Shown piece by piece: positions 4,338 to 12,862 of a stretch of DNA of 64,000 bases. Under the pieces are notes generated by a model. It saw nothing but the letters and a program-made list of their open reading frames with translations. It did not search any database and was not told the origin of the DNA. The translations under genes and the position numbers were made by a program. This stretch comes from Bacteroides fragilis (GTDB lineage: Bacteria; Bacteroidota; Bacteroidia; Bacteroidales; DTGW01): positions 62,001 to 126,000 of the forward strand of contig CAMDBI010000005.1 in NCBI GenBank assembly GCA_945889005.1, written 5' to 3'. Position 1 is the stretch's first letter; each line of letters starts with the position of its first letter.

Positions 4338-5522
4338 TTATAAATATTTTATCTCCACCACTTTCAAAAATTTCTCTTCGAGCAAACGAGCAATACGCCT
4401 TATAACTGTTCGGCGTATTTCCAATTCGACAGGCAGGTTCGGATCTTGATGTGCCACGTTTATTCGGGTGCCAATTAGAAAGCTTATTTGATCGCTATCG
4501 AGCAAATTTCGGGCAATAAGGTCGGCTGGACCCTTGCCCAATTGAATATTACTATTGTAATTCTGTAGTATTCTGTTTACTTTGCTCAAAGTCAGTATTC
4601 CTTCGGTATACAGGTCGATGCTTTCGATAAAAGAAATTGGTGGCAGTTCAGGATCGTCAATGTCTTTACCTTCTTCAATAGCCAGATTAAGCTCTCGGGC
4701 AAGAATATCGCCCGTAGTACCTCCACAGACTATTTTGGTGCCCGCAAATTCGTTTATTAAATTGGCAAATTCTTTATCTTTTTCTTCTTCAAATGGCGGG
4801 CCACTCACCAACAGCAATTTTCGAGGTTCACGAAAATAAATAACACAGCAACTTATATCGTCTTTTGCTTTAAATACGTCGTTTTTGTATGCTTCGTTTA
4901 TGACTTTTGTTGCCAGCTTATTTGCGGCAATATTGGGTTCTTTGTTAATAAGGTTTTGAATATATTGTTTGGCGCCATTTACACCCCAGCCCATGGTTAA
5001 AACATTTGATCCCAAGCCCGATTGCGAAACCCCATCGGTAAAGAAAATAATTCGATCTTCTTTTTTGGGATAAATGCTACAACTTTTTATTTCTTTGCTT
5101 TGCGATTTCTTTGAGTTTATCATCAGGCAGGTCCACTCGGGTTCAAGTATTTTTTTACCTCTAACGATGATACACTGAGGATTGTCGTACTCGAGAATGT
5201 GAGTTTGACCGTTGAGTTCAATGTCTATAACGGTAAAAGTAGCGTATCCTGTTTTTCGTTCGCTGCATTCGGGCAATGTATTGATAATGATTTCGGCAGT
5301 TCGGTTTTTCTCTTTGTGTTCGATGGTAAAATTCAATGCAAAGGTAGCTGTAAGTGTGCCCAGAATATTGGCTTTTACACCATGTCCCATGCCATCTGAA
5401 AGCACAGCAATGATTCGTCCTTCTTCTTTTATTTTTTTGCTCAGAAAAACATCGCCACAAATCCTTTCGTTGTGACAAAATATTTGTTGACACCCGACAT
5501 CGATATGAAATTGATCTTCCAT
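4338..5522 (-). CDS. SpoIIE/PP2C-type serine/threonine phosphatase linked to a sensory hydrogenase
   Basis: 394 residues. Residues ~1-235 are a SpoIIE/PP2C phosphatase domain with metal-binding Asp residues in CGDVFLSKK, SDGMGHGVKA, FFTDGVSQSGLGS and KDDISCCVIYF. Residues ~240-394 form an extension (GPPFEEEKDKEF, KIVCGGTTGD, then a basic tail) that I cannot assign to a known domain. Its start directly abuts the stop of the sensory [FeFe] hydrogenase (TAAATG), so the two are translationally coupled. Group C [FeFe] hydrogenases linked to PP2C phosphatases are known; the expected job is to convert an H2 or redox signal into dephosphorylation of an unknown target. Confidence 0.85.
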   Translation of the reverse strand: MEDQFHIDVGCQQIFCHNERICGDVFLSKKIKEEGRIIAVLSDGMGHGVKANILGTLTATFALNFTIEHKEKNRTAEIIINTLPECSERKTGYATFTVIDIELNGQTHILEYDNPQCIIVRGKKILEPEWTCLMINSKKSQSKEIKSCSIYPKKEDRIIFFTDGVSQSGLGSNVLTMGWGVNGAKQYIQNLINKEPNIAANKLATKVINEAYKNDVFKAKDDISCCVIYFREPRKLLLVSGPPFEEEKDKEFANLINEFAGTKIVCGGTTGDILARELNLAIEEGKDIDDPELPPISFIESIDLYTEGILTLSKVNRILQNYNSNIQLGKGPADLIARNLLDSDQISFLIGTRINVAHQDPNLPVELEIRRTVIRRIARLLEEKFLKVVEIKYL

Positions 5523-7385
5523 TTATTTCTCTGTTCTTTTTTTGAACGACTCCATAATCGAATTGAGCATTCGTTCGGTTTCAGAGGCACCTTCGCCTAG
5601 CAAAAAGCCAATTTGCTGAACCATTTCCAAGTTTTTGTCAATCACTTCGCTTACTCTGGTTACGACTTCTTCCGAACGTACTTCGGGGGTATACATATCG
5701 CGAATAACAGCCCCAGCTATTTTCCCTGTTTTTATAGGAAAAACCGAAACATTCAACAGGTTTTGGTCTATATGAATGTCCTTATTTTGTATTTCTTCGT
5801 TCGACTCTAGTACGTATGTAACTAAGTTGTAAAATGTATAAGGGAAAAGGGTTTTAATATCGGCGCCTACCAAACCGGGTATTACTTCATTAATTTCTTT
5901 AACTTCGTCGCCCAACATGCTTATAAAGCTGTCGTTTGCCAATATCACCTTTAGATCTTTGTTTATAATTACCAGACCTGCCGGTAGTTTTTTGAGCATG
6001 GTGTTGGTCATATCCGATGCTTCGCGCGACGCCTCATGTTCCTTATGAGCTTTTTTCTCCGACTCCTTAAGAGCGACCTGCATTTGCGCCAATTTTTCAT
6101 TGGTTTGTTTGAGCGATTTTATGTACTTATTTTGCGATTGCATCGAAAATGTATTGCAAAGCTGAGGAATCGATAAACCTTGCGCTACAGCTATAGCATG
6201 TTCGCGGCACGACGAAAAACCACACGATCCGCAACCCGTTTCTTCTTCGTCTTTGGCTTCTTTGCCCATCGATTGAAGTATTCCCGATATCTCTTCTTCT
6301 TCAGGATGGTGCATTCGTTGGTCGTCGTTTTTAAATGTACATGAAAAATCGAGTTCTGTATATTGTTGGCGTTGTAAATCCCATTTTTGTATGTCGAAAC
6401 TTTTTGTGCGTTTATTGGCATATTTTGTTACAAGACTTCTCCTAATAAGTTTTTTCCCATTTTTACTAGTGCCAGGACCCATCATACACCCTTCGCAATA
6501 AAATAAATTGAAATGTGCGTTTATGTTTTCTATTGATGTTTCGAATTCGCGTAAAGCATTCATCGTGTTTACTTTTCCTTCAGCAGTGAGGATGCTTCCC
6601 TCTAATATTTTTTCATTTAAGTCGGCAACTTGTAAAATACCATTACTAATCGGAAATATTGATCCCATGTAACCTACGGGTTCGTCAAAGTCCGAATACT
6701 CTACCATTCCTTCGTTTATATCTTTTTCGTCGAACAAAAGCCTCAATTCTTCAAATGTCAGAACTTCATCGATCTTTTTTAAACCATCATATTTTAAAAT
6801 TTCATTCTTAGCAGCAATACAAGGACTAATTTCAACTATTTTGACATCGTTGCCAAGTTGACTTCTAATTGCAAGTGCAGTTGCTATTCGGGGCGAAACA
6901 ATGGGAGCAAGGTTAGGTATTAACTCGGGATAAAATTTTTCAATGTAAAAAACAACAACAGGGCAATTGGAGGTAATATAATATTTACCCTTAAAATGTT
7001 CGATTAGGTTTTTATATTGTTTGGCAACCAAATCGACACCAAATGAAATCTCGAAGACCCCTTGAAATCCAAGTAGTCGAATCATTTGAACAAACTTCCT
7101 GTAATCGCTTATGTCGCTAAACTCACCTGCTATACTGGGGTCACAAATTGCTACAACTTTTTCGTCGCTGGATATCAATTTGCTAACTCGTTCTTTGGCA
7201 GAACTGTATTTAATGGCATTGTACGAACATGAAATTGTGCAATTGCCACAACCGATGCATCTTTCGTTAACAAATTGAGGCATTTGTTGGCTCGACGATA
7301 TTTTCAATGCCTTAACCGGACAGGTTCTGACACATGCATAACACATGGTACACAACAAGGAGTCGATTTCTATGAGTGGTTTCAA
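5523..7385 (-). CDS. Sensory (group C-like) [FeFe] hydrogenase with PAS domain
   Basis: 620 residues. Residues 12-60 hold two [4Fe-4S] ferredoxin motifs (CTMCYACVRTCP, CIGCGNCTISC). The H-cluster domain follows with TSNCP (138-142), SPCIAAKNE (~187) and CEGCMMGPG (~298), keeping the four ligand cysteines. An extra Fe-S domain is at ~385-415 (CGSCGFSSC). A coiled coil (~420-455) leads to a PAS domain (~460-575). Catalytic [FeFe] hydrogenases have TSCCP; here the first Cys, the proton-transfer residue, is Asn, as expected for a low-activity sensor. It is divergent from hydCBA, which it likely helps regulate through the phosphatase downstream. Confidence 0.9.
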   Translation of the reverse strand: MKPLIEIDSLLCTMCYACVRTCPVKALKISSSQQMPQFVNERCIGCGNCTISCSYNAIKYSSAKERVSKLISSDEKVVAICDPSIAGEFSDISDYRKFVQMIRLLGFQGVFEISFGVDLVAKQYKNLIEHFKGKYYITSNCPVVVFYIEKFYPELIPNLAPIVSPRIATALAIRSQLGNDVKIVEISPCIAAKNEILKYDGLKKIDEVLTFEELRLLFDEKDINEGMVEYSDFDEPVGYMGSIFPISNGILQVADLNEKILEGSILTAEGKVNTMNALREFETSIENINAHFNLFYCEGCMMGPGTSKNGKKLIRRSLVTKYANKRTKSFDIQKWDLQRQQYTELDFSCTFKNDDQRMHHPEEEEISGILQSMGKEAKDEEETGCGSCGFSSCREHAIAVAQGLSIPQLCNTFSMQSQNKYIKSLKQTNEKLAQMQVALKESEKKAHKEHEASREASDMTNTMLKKLPAGLVIINKDLKVILANDSFISMLGDEVKEINEVIPGLVGADIKTLFPYTFYNLVTYVLESNEEIQNKDIHIDQNLLNVSVFPIKTGKIAGAVIRDMYTPEVRSEEVVTRVSEVIDKNLEMVQQIGFLLGEGASETERMLNSIMESFKKRTEK

Positions 7386-7516
7386 ATTAATTGCTTATTT
7401 ATAACAAATCCAAATTATTTTTATTAATTGCTTTAACAAAACAAATTTGATAGTTTTATGTCCGATTTTACAAGTAAAGTAAAATAAAAAAATGATACTG
7501 CACAAATTTCTTGATC
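7386..7516. promoter_or_regulatory. Divergent control region between sensory hydrogenase and hydCBA
   Basis: 131 bp of AT-rich DNA separate the divergent hydrogenase operons and must hold both promoters. I see no perfect TAnnTTTG box on either strand. A loose inverted element at 7421-7439 (TTATTAA, five bases, TTAACAA) resembles a Rex operator of the form TTGTTAA-N4-TTAACAA, but has one base too many in the spacer and one mismatch. Weak evidence only. Confidence 0.35.
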
Positions 7517-7978
7517 ATGTTGGTTGAATTAAATTCATTACTCGAAAAATATAATTATGGCAGAGAAAACCTGATATCAATTCTTCAGGATGTTCAGGAA
7601 AACTATGGTTACATTCCAGCCGAAGCGGTTAAGGAAATTAGCCATAAACTTAACCTGCCTTCGAGCAAGATATTTGGAATGGCTACTTTTTACAACCAAT
7701 TTAGATTTTCTCCCAAGGGAAAATATCATATTAAATTGTGCTATGGAACTGCCTGTCATTTGGTGGGAGCATCAACTTTTCTTAAAGAAATAGAGCGATT
7801 ACTTAAAATAAAAGATGGACAAACAACAACTGACAATTTGTTTAGTCTCGAGGTGAAATCCTGTATTGGAAGTTGTGGTCAAGCTCCAGTAATTGCCATT
7901 AACGAAGAGTTTTACCCAAAAGTAACTATTGAACAGTTGCATGAGATCATTAGTAATATCAGCATCTTAAACGAATAG
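7517..7978 (+). CDS. hydC: Bifurcating [FeFe] hydrogenase subunit HydC (NuoE-like)
   Basis: 153 residues from the ATG at 7517; a TTG two codons upstream is possible. It is a thioredoxin-like [2Fe-2S] protein of the NuoE/HydC family: helical N-terminus (IPAEAVKEISHKLNLP), then cluster cysteines in CYGTACHLVG (~79-84) and CIGSCGQAPV (~116-120). In electron-bifurcating HydABC enzymes this subunit relays electrons next to the FMN subunit. Only two bases separate its stop from the next start, so hydCBA is one transcript. Product is cytoplasmic. Confidence 0.95.
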   Translation: MLVELNSLLEKYNYGRENLISILQDVQENYGYIPAEAVKEISHKLNLPSSKIFGMATFYNQFRFSPKGKYHIKLCYGTACHLVGASTFLKEIERLLKIKDGQTTTDNLFSLEVKSCIGSCGQAPVIAINEEFYPKVTIEQLHEIISNISILNE

Positions 7979-7980
7979 CA

Positions 7981-9912
7981 TTGAACGAGACAGCAAATAT
8001 AGTCCAACATCTTTTGTTTCAAAATCCGGTTCAGCCAAGCAAGAAGCTAGAGCAAATGTTGTTATTGCTTCGTCGCGAAAAAATCAATATTCCCATAATA
8101 TCTATTGGGGCAGGTACTTGTGGTATAACTGCCGGGGCTAATAAAATTGAAAGTATTATTAAAAACTACCTTGAAGAACGGCAAATAGTTGCACAAATTG
8201 TAAAGGTGGGTTGTATTGGTATGTGTTCGTTCGAGCCTATAGTCGATGTTCATATACCGGGTAAAAGTCGAATATTCTTTAAGAATGTCGATGTCGACAA
8301 TGCAGGAATTTTAATGGACGATGTGTTTAATGGAATAATTCCAGAAACTAATGTAATTGGACAAATTGTTGATAATACTCATCAAAAATGGCATGGAGTA
8401 ACAAGTTTCGATAAATTACCTTTTTTTGCTTTGCAGCATAGAGTAGTGCTAAAAAATTGCGGTATTATCAATCCCGGTGATATAAATGAATATTTGGCAC
8501 ATGGAGGTTATCTGGCCTTTTCCAAATCTATTCAGAATTATTCGCCTTCGCAAATTTGCGATATAGTTGAAGAAAGTAAACTTCGAGGTCGATCGGGTGC
8601 CGGATATCTAACAGCTGCAAAATGGAAAACTGCTGCTGCTCAGAACAGTTATAAGAAATATATAATATGCAATGCCGAGGAGAGCGATCCCGGAGCATTT
8701 ATGGATAGAACTATTGTAGAGGGCGATCCCCATAGGCTTATCGAAGGCATTGCAATTGGAGCCTATGCCATAGGTGCATCTTCCGCTTACATTTATATTA
8801 GAAGTGAATATAGAGTGGGTATTCGTTCGCTCGAAGTGGCTATAGACCAAGCCAAGGCAGCAGGTTTGCTTGGCGAGAATATTTTGAACAGCAACTTTAA
8901 ACTGGAAATTATTATTAAACAATGTCCTGGAGCCTTTGTTTGTGGCGAAGAAACTGCACTTATCAATACAATCGAAGGAGAACGAGGCATGCCCGAAACC
9001 AAACCTCCTTATCCGGCAACCGATGGCTTGTTTGGCTACCCAACTGTAATCAATAATGTCGAAACCCTCGCCAATGTTGCTTCCATTGTGCAAAATGGTC
9101 CTCAATGGTTTGCCAGTATGGGAACCGAAAAAAGTAAAGGCACAAAAATATTTGCTTTGTCCGGAAAATCGAAAATTGTCGGTTTGGTTGAGGTTAAAAT
9201 GGGAACAAGCTTTCGCGAAATTATTTTCAATATTGCCGGAGGAATCAATAACGATCGAGCCTTTAAGGCAATTATATTGGGTGGACCTGTCGGTTTTCTT
9301 ATTCCGGAAAAAGATCTAGATACACCCATAGATTTCGAAAACCTCGAAGCCAAGAAATATGGTATGGGCTCGGGAGGAATGGTTATACTCGATGATGAAG
9401 TCTGTATTGTCGATACATTGAACTATTTTTCGCGATTCATGGAATTTCAAAGTTGTGGAAAATGTATCCCTTGTCGCGAAGGTACCAAAAGAATGTACGA
9501 AATTATACGATCGATTACACGTAAACCCAATTTGGCATTGGGACAATCGGCACTTACACGTTTCAAAGGAATTATCCAACTCGATACCCTAGCCGATGTT
9601 ATGAAACTTACATCACTCTGCGGTCTTGGGCAGTCGGCTCCCAATCCATATCTTAGCTCTATAGAAAATTTTAAAGAAGAATTTGAAGAACATATTTTCG
9701 AGCACCGATGCAGGGCTGGAGTGTGCAACGAACTCCGAACTTTCTCTATACATGTCGATATTTGTACCGGATGCGGTCTATGTGCCAAAAAATGCCCCTC
9801 GAATGCAATTGTTGGGTCAAAACGAATGCCCCATTTTATTGTTGAAGAAAAATGTACCGGGTGTGGCGAATGCTTCGAAATTTGTAAATTTAACGCCGTA
9901 ATAGTAAGCTGA
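7981..9912 (+). CDS. hydB: Bifurcating [FeFe] hydrogenase subunit HydB (NuoF-like, FMN/NADH-binding)
   Basis: 643 residues from a TTG start two bases after hydC; an ATG 25 codons in is an alternative. Order: thioredoxin-like [2Fe-2S] domain (GTCGITAGA, CIGMC, ~38-90); NADH/FMN-binding NuoF core (LRGRSGAGYLTAAKW ~200, GAFVCGEETALINTIEGERG ~316); SLBB region; NuoF [4Fe-4S] motif CGKCIPCREGT (~493); C-terminal 2x[4Fe-4S] ferredoxin (CTGCGLCAKKCP, CTGCGECFEIC, ~594-640). This is the full HydB architecture, the flavin subunit where NAD(H), ferredoxin and H2 electrons are bifurcated. The stop overlaps the hydA start (TGATG). Confidence 0.95.
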   Translation: MNETANIVQHLLFQNPVQPSKKLEQMLLLLRREKINIPIISIGAGTCGITAGANKIESIIKNYLEERQIVAQIVKVGCIGMCSFEPIVDVHIPGKSRIFFKNVDVDNAGILMDDVFNGIIPETNVIGQIVDNTHQKWHGVTSFDKLPFFALQHRVVLKNCGIINPGDINEYLAHGGYLAFSKSIQNYSPSQICDIVEESKLRGRSGAGYLTAAKWKTAAAQNSYKKYIICNAEESDPGAFMDRTIVEGDPHRLIEGIAIGAYAIGASSAYIYIRSEYRVGIRSLEVAIDQAKAAGLLGENILNSNFKLEIIIKQCPGAFVCGEETALINTIEGERGMPETKPPYPATDGLFGYPTVINNVETLANVASIVQNGPQWFASMGTEKSKGTKIFALSGKSKIVGLVEVKMGTSFREIIFNIAGGINNDRAFKAIILGGPVGFLIPEKDLDTPIDFENLEAKKYGMGSGGMVILDDEVCIVDTLNYFSRFMEFQSCGKCIPCREGTKRMYEIIRSITRKPNLALGQSALTRFKGIIQLDTLADVMKLTSLCGLGQSAPNPYLSSIENFKEEFEEHIFEHRCRAGVCNELRTFSIHVDICTGCGLCAKKCPSNAIVGSKRMPHFIVEEKCTGCGECFEICKFNAVIVS

Positions 9913-11636
9913 TGGATTTTACTATAGAAATAAACAATCAGCAAGTAACAGCTTCGAAAGGCGAAACCATACTTGAAGTGCTCAATCGAATTGGTATTGA
10001 AGTGCCTACGTTATGCAGTATGAAGAACTATGCGCCTACTGGTGCTTGTCGAATGTGTGTAGTTGAAGTCGAGGGTCGAAAAAATCTAATTCCTTCATGT
10101 TCGTTCAAGGTCGAAGAGTGGATGAAAATTAAAACACATTCGCCTAAAGTTGTAAAAGCTAGAAAAACAATAGTTGAACTTTTGCTTGCCGATCATCCCG
10201 ACGATTGTTTGTATTGTGAGCGTAATGGCAGTTGCGAATTACAAGACCTTGCAGAAGCCCTTCATATAAGAGAACGAAATCTTACGGGTCGCAAATCGCA
10301 TTTGCCTACAGATAAATCGAGCCTAAGCATAGTCAAAGAGCCTAAAAAATGTATTCTTTGTAGGCGTTGTGTTCGCGTATGCGACGAGATTGTTGGAGTT
10401 TCAACATTCGAACGATCTTATAGAGGTATCAATTCGGCTATAGAGACTGCTATGCACTTGCCACTTTCGAGCTCTAACTGTATCAATTGCGGGCAATGTA
10501 CTCTGGTTTGCCCTACAGCAGCGCTTACCGAAAAAATAAATTTTGCAGAAATATCGCCTTTTATTCATGGCTCTGAAAAACAAGTCATAGCCCTGTTTTC
10601 GCCTACCATACCTATCACCATTGCCGAGGAATTCAATATTCCTCTCAATAAAGATTTAAATGGTATTGTAATAGCGATACTTCGCAAAATAGGCTTTAAC
10701 AAAGTGTTCGATACCTCATTTGGCGCCGATTTGGTCGTTATGGAACAAACTTGGGAATTGCTCGATCGAATAAAGAACAATGGAAAATTTCCAATGTTTA
10801 CAAGTTGTTGCCCTGCTTGGGTCAAGTATGCCGAACAGTATTACCCGTCGTTACTGCCCAATTTGACAAGCACCAAGTCGCCTCAGCAAATAATGGGTGC
10901 AATCATAAAAACCATTTATGCTCAAAGCGAACAATTAAAGGCAGAAAATATACATACCGTTGCTATAATGCCATGTACTGCCAAGAAATACGAAGCTATG
11001 CGTCCGGAAATGACGCAAAAAGGCATTACAGAGGTCGATACTGTAATTACAACCCGCGAATTGATAAGGCTTATTAAAATGTATGGCATCAATGTGCTGT
11101 CTATTGAACCTGAGCAACCCGATAGCTTTTTCTCGGGAAAGGGGTCTGCAGGCAAATTGGTAGGTGTGTCGGGAGGAGCAGCCGAAGCAGCCGCCCGAAC
11201 GATTTATGCTGCTATTACCGGAAAGGAGCTTTCTCAATCAAATTTGATTGAAATTAGAGGCTTTCAGGGAATCAAAGAAACTTCACTCAATCTAGACGGA
11301 AAGCAATTAGGAATAGCTGTAATTAATGGTATGGCAAATGCTCGAATTTTGCTCGACGAAATTATTCAAGGTCGCGACGATATACATTTTGTCGAAGTAA
11401 TGGCTTGTCCTGGTGGATGTATTAATGGCGGCGGACAGCCTATTAATAGAGGCTCAAAAAGTCTCGATATTAAAAAAGATTCGATTTACGAAATAGACAG
11501 CAACGAAAGTATTAAGTCGGCACATTTGAATCCGCTAATAAAAAATATTTACGAAAAATATCTTGTTTCACCATACAATCCTGCAAATTTTTCGATACTT
11601 CATACACACTACAACAAGTTAGATACCATGTTTTGA
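9912..11636 (+). CDS. hydA: Bifurcating [FeFe] hydrogenase catalytic subunit HydA
   Basis: 574 residues. N-terminal plant-type [2Fe-2S] domain (CSMKNYAPTGACRMC, ~34-48), a His/Cys-ligated cluster motif (HPDDCLYCERNGSC, ~94-107), two [4Fe-4S] motifs (CILCRRCVRVC, CINCGQCTLVCP), then the H-cluster domain: TSCCPAW (~296), MPCTAKKYE (~353), and MACPGGCINGGG (~496). Unlike the sensory paralogue at 5.5-7.4 kb, the proton-transfer Cys is kept. It makes or oxidises H2 with ferredoxin and NAD(H) as partners together with HydB and HydC. Maturases HydE, HydF and HydG are not in this window. Confidence 0.96.
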   Translation: MDFTIEINNQQVTASKGETILEVLNRIGIEVPTLCSMKNYAPTGACRMCVVEVEGRKNLIPSCSFKVEEWMKIKTHSPKVVKARKTIVELLLADHPDDCLYCERNGSCELQDLAEALHIRERNLTGRKSHLPTDKSSLSIVKEPKKCILCRRCVRVCDEIVGVSTFERSYRGINSAIETAMHLPLSSSNCINCGQCTLVCPTAALTEKINFAEISPFIHGSEKQVIALFSPTIPITIAEEFNIPLNKDLNGIVIAILRKIGFNKVFDTSFGADLVVMEQTWELLDRIKNNGKFPMFTSCCPAWVKYAEQYYPSLLPNLTSTKSPQQIMGAIIKTIYAQSEQLKAENIHTVAIMPCTAKKYEAMRPEMTQKGITEVDTVITTRELIRLIKMYGINVLSIEPEQPDSFFSGKGSAGKLVGVSGGAAEAAARTIYAAITGKELSQSNLIEIRGFQGIKETSLNLDGKQLGIAVINGMANARILLDEIIQGRDDIHFVEVMACPGGCINGGGQPINRGSKSLDIKKDSIYEIDSNESIKSAHLNPLIKNIYEKYLVSPYNPANFSILHTHYNKLDTMF

Positions 11637-11637
11637 T

Positions 11638-12027
11638 ATGAGTAAAAAAACGATATTACTGGCTGGCTCCGACAAAAAAAAAATGAGCATTTTTAAATCG
11701 TACTTCGAAAAAATGACTTATAAAATCATTATATCATTTTCTCAAAAAGAAACTGAAAGCATTATTGCAAGCCATAAACCCGATTTAGCCATATTTGATT
11801 TAATTATGGAAAACGAAGACAGTGGTTTTATATTAGCATATAAATTCAAAAAATTGTACCCCGATGTGCCTGTAATCATTCAATCGTCGTCTTCAAAATA
11901 TAAAAATATCACATTCTCATTAGATACTGTAGAAGAACGAAAATGGATAAAAGCAGATGCAATTATCGAAAAAACAACTTCGCCCGATCAGCTTCAAAAA
12001 GAGATTTTTAAATTGTTGAAACTGTAA
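11638..12027 (+). CDS. Stand-alone response-regulator receiver domain
   Basis: 129 residues, just one receiver domain with no output domain. The phospho-acceptor is probably Asp54 (IFDLIM); the conserved Lys is in EKTTSP near the end and the switch Ser lies in a run of serines (QSSSSK). The acidic patch near the N-terminus is reduced to a single Asp (GSDKKK), so metal binding may be atypical. It starts two bases after the hydA stop, so it is part of the hydrogenase operon. No histidine kinase lies nearby; it may work with the sensory hydrogenase/phosphatase pair (inference). Confidence 0.8.
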   Translation: MSKKTILLAGSDKKKMSIFKSYFEKMTYKIIISFSQKETESIIASHKPDLAIFDLIMENEDSGFILAYKFKKLYPDVPVIIQSSSSKYKNITFSLDTVEERKWIKADAIIEKTTSPDQLQKEIFKLLKL

Positions 12028-12229: not shown

Positions 12230-12862
12230 ATGGCCGAAAAAGAGAAATTACCGGAAAAAACAGTCGAACGCTTAAGCGAATATCGTCGTTCGATGCTCAA
12301 TTGCCTTGCTCAGGGAAAAACACATATTTTTTCTCACGATTTGGCTCTTTTGCACAACATAACAGCAGTTCAGGTTCGTCGCGATGTAATGTTTATGGGT
12401 TACACCAGCTCACAACGTAAAGGTTACGACATTAAAGAAATGATAGAGGTTATTGGTCGGGTGTTGGATTCGGAAAGTGGTCTTAATGTTGCTATTGTTG
12501 GTATGGGTAATTTGGGTAAAGCTATTACTGCATATTTTACAGGCAAACGATCAAAACTTAACATTGTAGCAGGTTTCGATATCGATCCGGACAAAACTAA
12601 TATGACCATTTCTGGTGTTAAGTGTTATCCACTTAGTTCTTTAAACGATATTATTAAAAAGAAAAATATTTCTATAGGCATTATTACAGTTCCTCCGACT
12701 TTTGCCCCCGACATTGCAAAGCTTCTTGTAAACTTCGGAATAAAAGGAATTTTAAACTTTACGTCAATTCCATTAAATGTCCCAGAATCGGTCTTTCTTG
12801 AAAATTACGACATGATTACTTCATTAGAAAAAGTAGCCTATTTTGTCAAAGAAAAGAAATAA
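12230..12862 (+). CDS. rex: Redox-sensing transcriptional repressor Rex
   Basis: 210 residues. The N-terminal winged helix (~1-80; the Rex motif QVRRDVMFMG is visible) binds operators. The C-terminal Rossmann domain has GMGNLG (~92-97), and FDID (~116-119) for NADH/NAD+ sensing. Rex represses fermentation and hydrogenase genes when NADH is low and lets go when NADH is high. Its position after hydCBA and the receiver supports control of the hydrogenase operon by the NADH pool. It has its own promoter at 12123-12153. Confidence 0.95.
   Translation: MAEKEKLPEKTVERLSEYRRSMLNCLAQGKTHIFSHDLALLHNITAVQVRRDVMFMGYTSSQRKGYDIKEMIEVIGRVLDSESGLNVAIVGMGNLGKAITAYFTGKRSKLNIVAGFDIDPDKTNMTISGVKCYPLSSLNDIIKKKNISIGIITVPPTFAPDIAKLLVNFGIKGILNFTSIPLNVPESVFLENYDMITSLEKVAYFVKEKK

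Follow-up and report, generated by a model that had tools for sequence, protein, structure and literature searches.

A probable phosphatase-linked [FeFe] hydrogenase sensor with asparagine at a variable proton-path position

A sensory hydrogenase homologue divergent from hydCBA

The 64,000-nucleotide stretch of DNA analysed here (the window) carries a gene for a sensory [FeFe] hydrogenase homologue, HydS, and a SpoIIE/PP2C-type phosphatase gene on one strand, and hydCBA, a response regulator gene and rex on the other (Table 1). HydS is a probable phosphatase-linked sensor of the HydDB C3 type and is encoded divergently from hydCBA.

Table 1 Genes and residues of the hydrogenase locus (window coordinates)
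Feature	Position	Strand	Basis
SpoIIE/PP2C-type phosphatase	4338..5522	-	SpoIIE match, E 8.9e-11; motifs CGD, SDGMGHG, TDGVSQSG, DD
HydS, sensory [FeFe] hydrogenase homologue	5523..7385	-	open ORF, TTG start, 620 aa
HydS H-cluster cubane ligands	6486..6965 (C141 6965-6963, C189 6821-6819, C297 6497-6495, C300 6488-6486)	-	alignment; positions from ORF
Asn140 (AAT), site of CpI C299	6966..6968 (read 6968-6966)	-	alignment to CpI and within family
HydC (NuoE-like)	7511..7978	+	profile matches
HydB (NuoF-like)	7981..9912	+	profile matches
HydA, A3-like bifurcating-type subunit	9912..11636	+	profile matches, alignment
Single-domain response regulator, phospho-Asp54 kept	11638..12027	+	Pfam, alignment
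Rex redox repressor	12230..12862	+	profile matches

The N-terminal part of HydS contains two [4Fe-4S] ferredoxin motifs, which are followed by the H-domain (Pfam Fe_hyd_lg_C, residues 75–304, E 3.6e-39) and a C-terminal FeS motif, Cx2Cx4Cx16C, formed by C385, C388, C393 and C410. This is the domain make-up implied by the original prediction, with the PAS domain falling just under the Pfam cut-offs (PAS_8, 20.9 bits against 21.8; PAS_9, 20.5 bits against 27). The PAS_8 cut-off is exceeded in four (L102, L119, L122 and L132) of 10 relatives scanned. Pfam detected no kinase domain in HydS, and the HisKA and HATPase C-terminus of group C1, which was found in proteins from L013 and L054, is absent. 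All four cubane cysteines of the H-cluster are retained and thus supply the L1, L2 and L3 cysteines of group C3 (C141, C189, C297 and C300). Because these ligands and Lys193 are kept and HydG is present in the genome (HydE and HydF lay outside the search), HydS probably still carries an H-cluster.

The start codon of the downstream phosphatase gene directly follows the hydS stop codon, which places beside HydS the Ser/Thr phosphatase that is a criterion of group C3. HydS is probably translated together with the PP2C and probably controls it. The aspartates of the PP2C motifs CGD, DG and DD are present in all 91 aligned rows, among which the window protein may count twice. The C-terminal portion of roughly 160 residues (approximately 230–394) has no Pfam match; across the same 91 rows it bears near-invariant GPP, G[AG]TT and TEG motifs. 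Fold prediction of the phosphatase reached a mean pLDDT of 33.9 with a single sequence and 57.2 with eight sequences, and much of the C-terminal part remained below 50. A genome-wide survey of SpoIIE and STAS matches did not find the target of the phosphatase: among 20 SpoIIE-type matches in 3.26 Mb only the PP2C itself lies within the window, and of four STAS matches, three of them above cut-off, none does.

The L1 motif of HydS (residues 138–142) reads TSNCP and that of the window HydA reads TSCCP, as originally stated, with the cysteine being residue 299 of HydA. Asn140 is accompanied by replacements at every other position of the canonical proton path: relative to CpI, E279 is Q123, E282 is N126, R286 is H130, C299 is N140 and S319 is A160. 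Thus, HydS retains none of the C299/E279/S319/E282/R286 set of fast group A enzymes. The positions of CpI M353 and M497 are occupied by Ser187 and Phe295, respectively.

The accompanying claim that group C sensors mostly lack the cysteine agrees with one report, in which Cys occupies the site in 17% of sensory sequences, Ala in about 43%, and Pro and Ser in about 10% each; Asn may be in the remainder (PMC10055695). The sensors TmHydS and TamHydS are likewise described as being without the canonical proton path (PMC8163306, PMC10407848). Asn is a variant within an already known, variable position. When the equivalent C298 site of CaHydA was saturated, Asp was reported as the sole active replacement, and C298N was a negative clone at a detection limit of 14% of wild type (PMC3485046). 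Given the general lack of Cys in group C sensors and the negative C298N clone, low turnover of the window HydS is a fair inference by analogy, and this part of the idea that Asn slows turnover is supported. The part that makes Asn the cause is not supported, because the whole path is changed. Moreover, the A131C variant of TmHydS was reported to reduce H2 oxidation by 40% and H2 evolution by 20% (PMC10055695), and so an N140C substitution in HydS probably would not restore turnover.

Cofactor ligands across the sensor family

Relatives were collected from an order sample of 295 genomes (130 with a HydS match at E ≤ 1e-60, the window's own included), a phylum sample of 395 genomes (30 matching at E ≤ 1e-30, again including its own) and nine loci from named Bacteroidales/Bacteroidetes metagenome assemblies. 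Sequences were taken from part of the order-search matches, namely the loci returned and 99 further stretches. After 30 duplicates and one 165-residue fragment had been dropped, the alignment held 173 distinct HydS proteins of at least 330 residues, of which 100 end in PAS, 71 end in a kinase and two are unassigned; a partial row (L140) was left out of the HydS tree only. Four of the PAS-ending rows (L042, L043, L044 and L059) come from outside the class. For HydS of L079, L133 and L142, which have one in-frame stop inside the search match, the open frame alone was used. The PAS and kinase labels were assigned by BLAST of the C-terminus, with a Pfam check on 14 proteins.

Gene order backs these labels. 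Of the 100 PAS-ending HydS, 90 have a PP2C gene next downstream, against none of the 71 kinase-ending HydS, and a response regulator gene follows 66 of the 71 kinase-ending proteins and none of the PAS-ending ones; two PAS-ending and five kinase-ending rows have fewer than 300 bases of downstream room. In L119, L129, L132, L134 and L135, the phosphatase-linked HydS gene is arranged back to back with rex, not with hydCBA.

At least one of the four cubane cysteines is missing in 26 of the 100 PAS-ending HydS and in none of the 71 kinase-ending HydS. Most often C499 alone is replaced (19 proteins; Asn in 12, Asp in four and His in three). HydS of L114 has lost two ligands, that of L099 has lost three, and five proteins (L102, L111, L119, L122 and L132) have lost all four. 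The ligands of the other FeS clusters are kept: the four C-terminal cysteines in 99 or 100 of the 100 proteins, and the eight N-terminal cysteines in 99, with the exception of C15 (83 of 100, with Ser in 15). On a quick tree with some long branches, no fewer than nine switches between the intact and the lost state are required, and two for the loss of three or more ligands. In the smallest well-supported clade containing the window HydS (13 rows), some members have all four ligands and others have none. The Fe_hyd_lg_C model still matches all 10 ligand-losing proteins scanned.

These losses lend weight to an alternative in which phosphatase-linked HydS is turning into a pseudo-hydrogenase that is blind to H2 and reads the redox state of ferredoxin through its other FeS clusters, with Asn140 being an early step of decay. 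PP2C follows 25 of the 26 ligand-losing HydS, and the remaining one lacks room downstream. Whole-gene dN/dS was computable for only three of the 11 ligand-losing pairs tested because dS was saturated in the other eight; the values of 0.03 (L067/L070, dS 1.1), 0.04 (L102/L111, dS 3.4) and 0.11 (L099/L102, dS 3.0) suggest selection to keep these genes, although two of these values come with a dS near 3. However, the window HydS and 74 of the 100 proteins keep all four ligands, and the residues that replace C499 (Asn, Asp or His) might themselves serve as cubane ligands. We regard H2 blindness as unlikely. With its four ligands in place, the window HydS may, like TmHydS, have a different route for H2 turnover.

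The three proteins with a natural His at C499 (L108, L110 and L112) are related phosphatase-linked HydS. We take this position to be that of the laboratory variant C417H of CrHydA1. A review describes an effect on activity and a shift in catalytic bias when His replaces a cubane ligand cysteine (PMC11376134).

The C299 site in two sensor types and in HydA

Kinase-ending HydS of the order carry Asp at the C299 site in 42 of 45 cases (Ser in two and Asn in one), as do the kinase-type HydS of all 19 further loci. Both types occur together in 41 loci, which are not all independent because several are near relatives. There, Asp is found in 38 of the kinase-type proteins, with Ser in two and Asn in one, and the phosphatase-type partner has Asn in 26 and Asp in none. 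The residue typical of the kinase type is the sole active replacement at CaHydA C298, and the one commonest in the phosphatase type was a negative clone there.

The gene order in relatives is HydA, kinase-type HydS, response regulator. In the window, HydA is immediately followed by the response regulator gene, and the gene in between is likewise missing from L050 and L126; the phospho-Asp of the regulator is kept in all 75 aligned rows. A protein search of the window's own genome found neither a second HydS of the window kind nor a kinase-linked HydS. Together with the division between Asp and Asn in two-sensor loci, this arrangement would fit a scheme in which a fast, Asp-bearing kinase HydS and an Asn-bearing phosphatase HydS that is slow or covers another H2 range have outputs balanced by the H2 level, and in which the kinase channel is gone from the window genome except for its response regulator. 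Yet the scheme presupposes a common target of both sensors, and PP2C enzymes are normally inactive on Asp-phosphate. Furthermore, the phosphatase-type residue is not fixed, and the kinship among the two-sensor loci reduces their weight. Such a pair of balanced channels appears rather improbable to us.

The lack of fixation is evident from the alignment of group C proteins at this site, a check that had been proposed along with the original prediction. Among the 100 distinct PAS-ending HydS, Asn occurs in 60 and ten other residue types account for the rest: Cys (7), Ala (7), Lys (6), Leu (5), His (4), Ile (3), Thr (3), Val (2), Met (2) and Ser (1). The 95 in-order rows show ten residue types, and a tree of these rows built without the motif columns gives 26 changes at the site, the median H-domain position having 22. 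The site is therefore about as free as an average H-domain position, and the prevalence of Asn hints at some preference. At the E282 position, Glu or Asp is found in 60 of the 100 proteins, and so part of the proton path survives in many relatives.

These data bear directly on the proposal, made originally, that Asn is a specific adaptation that slows a hydrogenase-like site to suit H2 sensing. Its status as the commonest residue in the family and the behaviour of CaHydA, in which C298N shows no activity above the limit of 14% of wild type and Asp works, are in keeping with that proposal. However, the site drifts through ten other residue types and even carries Cys in seven proteins, the remaining path residues are changed as well, Asp occupies the site in the order's kinase-type sensors, two HydA subunits also have Asn at the C299 site and TmHydS A131C is reported to give no rise in activity. 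We consider a dedicated slowing role to be improbable, and tuning for sensing is not borne out. A role for Asn as a general mark of sensors is ruled out, because the kinase type has Asp in the order and Pro, Ala or Ser outside the class. A sequencing error or decayed gene can be dismissed even though the assembly is in 62 contigs and the named relatives are metagenome assemblies: the Asn140 codon is two base changes away from a Cys codon, the reading frame is open with its ligands intact, and Asn, whose absence from all relatives had been named as the sign of such an error, is present in 11 of 12 close relatives (Cys in the other) as well as in the majority of the family.

It is doubtful whether the window HydA can serve as the normal catalytic enzyme of the expected contrast. 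The window HydA keeps C299 (10806–10808), E282, R286, its N-terminal FeS cysteines and all four H-cluster cysteines, but has Gln in place of E279 (10746–10748) and Thr in place of S319 (10866–10868). The E279Q variant of CpI is reported to have less than 1% activity (PMC6226526), and setting a catalytic HydA against a slow sensor is therefore insecure. As a plain catalytic control, the window HydA is ruled out by these two residues and by a lineage without the full path. The protein scores 447.2 with the group A model TIGR02512 (cut-off 405.95) and 712.9 with NF040763 for NADH-dependent A6 enzymes (cut-off 765). It has the NuoE/NuoF partners and N-terminal FeS ligands of A3 bifurcating HydABC enzymes, and not the full proton path.

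This departure is shared by a whole lineage. In a tree of 97 HydA rows from which columns 275–322 were left out, the full set C299/E279/S319/E282/R286 is found in none of the 47 distinct proteins in the window half (C299 is kept in 27 and E279 in three) and in all 48 of the other half. HydA of L005 and L007 were left out of the counts as copies of other rows, and HydA of L136, which has Phe at C299 and 32% identity to the window HydA, lies outside the tree rows. The split is one clade and may be a single event; proteins of the window half retain their N-terminal FeS cysteines and all four cysteines of the H-cluster. All but one of the 47 share a stretch with a PAS-ending HydS, the exception (L189) being an additional HydA from a genome with such a stretch, and HydA from kinase-only loci holding one has the full path in 22 of 22 cases. 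The rule is not strict: among stretches with a phosphatase-linked HydS, five in the order (L115, L123, L124, L128 and L133) and three outside it (L042, L043 and L059) have no HydA other than one with C299, E279 and S319, and five more (L013, L095, L127, L161 and L165) hold one HydA of each kind. Loss of C299 in HydA is weakly associated with ligand loss in HydS (8/19 versus 6/35, Fisher p 0.058, with one HydA counted per HydS and kinship ignored). In a search of the window HydA clade for new conserved protonatable residues near the H-cluster, the gains listed, which include E6, D97, Y101 and R122, are N-terminal or hydrophobic.

Six HydA proteins (L056, L057, L115, L123, L128 and L133), 37–41% identical to the window HydA, have Ser at the H-cluster ligand C300 and keep C299.

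The genome also contains a second hydrogenase cluster on contig 16 (L053, 48000–67900), which encodes a HydA with a complete path, NuoE/NuoF homologues, HATPase, PHP and DRTGG proteins, and a 461-residue [FeFe] protein that has no PAS match and carries Phe at the C299 site (SCFCP). This second HydA (L004, contig 16) falls in the full-path half of the HydA tree, and its sequence makes it the likely ordinary hydrogenase of the genome.

Interpretation and known systems

We favour, with a probability of roughly 0.6, the reading that the window HydS is a phosphatase-linked, C3-type sensor acting with its PP2C, that Asn140 lies at a freed site and that the locus is a slow H2/redox regulatory unit. 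Asn140 would not be a dedicated switch but one of five changed path residues, at a site no longer held to fast proton transfer. The low turnover, signal route and phosphatase control in this reading are what we infer from the sequence, gene order and residue patterns described above. Because the HydA lineage opposite HydS is also without a complete canonical path, the whole locus seems to be a slow unit responsive to H2 or redox state. The H-cluster, if assembled, would react slowly with H2 or equilibrate with the ferredoxin pool, and the FeS clusters of the N-terminal and C-terminal parts would relay its electron state to the PAS domain; this domain would set the activity of the PP2C on a phosphoprotein. 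In relatives, the kinase-linked sister retains an ionisable Asp and, in all those seen, a full set of H-cluster ligands, and the phosphatase-linked protein has Asn or nearly any other residue and lacks one or more ligands in a quarter of cases. In Thermoanaerobacterium, ethanol yield is reported to have risen when the hydS homologue hfsB was deleted (PMC5707799), which supports a regulatory role for related systems.

A broader account, which we put forward tentatively and would not yet bet on, is that a duplicated [FeFe] sensor has split in this order of Bacteroidota into an Asp-bearing kinase branch that stays intact and a phosphatase branch whose H2 chemistry is being lost in steps. The proton path would have gone first, then single ligands (to Asn, Asp or His at C499) and finally all four, with the other FeS clusters and the PP2C partner being kept; hydCBA, caught between both sensors, would also have lost its full proton path. 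If this account is correct, the phosphatase-linked ‘hydrogenases’ are redox sensors of hydrogenase ancestry, and the C499N, C499D and C499H proteins are natural non-cysteine H-clusters. In the open-licence literature searched, neither group C sensors that lose ligands nor a split between Asp and Asn nor this HydA clade was found described.

The family amounts to a natural series at C299 (Cys, Asp, Asn, Lys, Leu and others) and at C499 (Cys, Asn, Asp, His or none). Since its members have similar builds and single loci offer both a kinase and a phosphatase partner, the need of catalysis for sensing is directly testable. A TSCCP motif in a HydA is by itself no evidence of a fast enzyme.

In HydDB, groups C1 to C3 are classed as putative and their roles are given as undetermined (PMC5037454). 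Group C3 as described there has HydS beside a Ser/Thr (PP2C/SpoIIE) phosphatase, as in the window, and a PAS domain, for which the window HydS scores just under the cut-offs; the family examined here differs in its drift at C299, where Asn reaches 60 of 100, and in the quarter of its members without full H-cluster ligands. Histidine-kinase-linked HydS of group C1 shares the H-domain and is the sister protein in 41 relative loci. It has a HisKA and HATPase C-terminus and a response regulator downstream, and differs in carrying Asp at C299 in nearly all of the order and intact ligands in all proteins seen.

Among characterized sensors, TmHydS of Thermotoga maritima resembles the window HydS in having an H-domain and extra FeS clusters, and has PAS, which the window HydS matches just under the cut-offs; it combines low activity with replacement of C299 and other path residues (PMC10055695). 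The window HydS shares the replacements, with Asn, Ser and Phe at C299, M353 and M497 where TmHydS has Ala, Gly and Ser. TamHydS, of group D, is similarly described as having no canonical proton path and a C-terminal FeS motif (PMC8163306, PMC10407848), a motif reported for groups C and D (PMC8163306). It has no PAS domain, where the window HydS has a match just under the cut-offs, and an alternative path through E252 and E289 has been proposed for it. The CaHydA variants C298N and C298D (PMC3485046) place at the same site the residues of phosphatase-type and kinase-type sensors, respectively; unlike HydS, they were made in the laboratory from a fast enzyme whose path is otherwise intact. Finally, A3 bifurcating HydABC enzymes share the HydC–HydB–HydA gene set and FeS ligands with the window operon, whereas the window HydA clade, with 47 distinct rows, is without the full C299/E279/S319/E282/R286 set.
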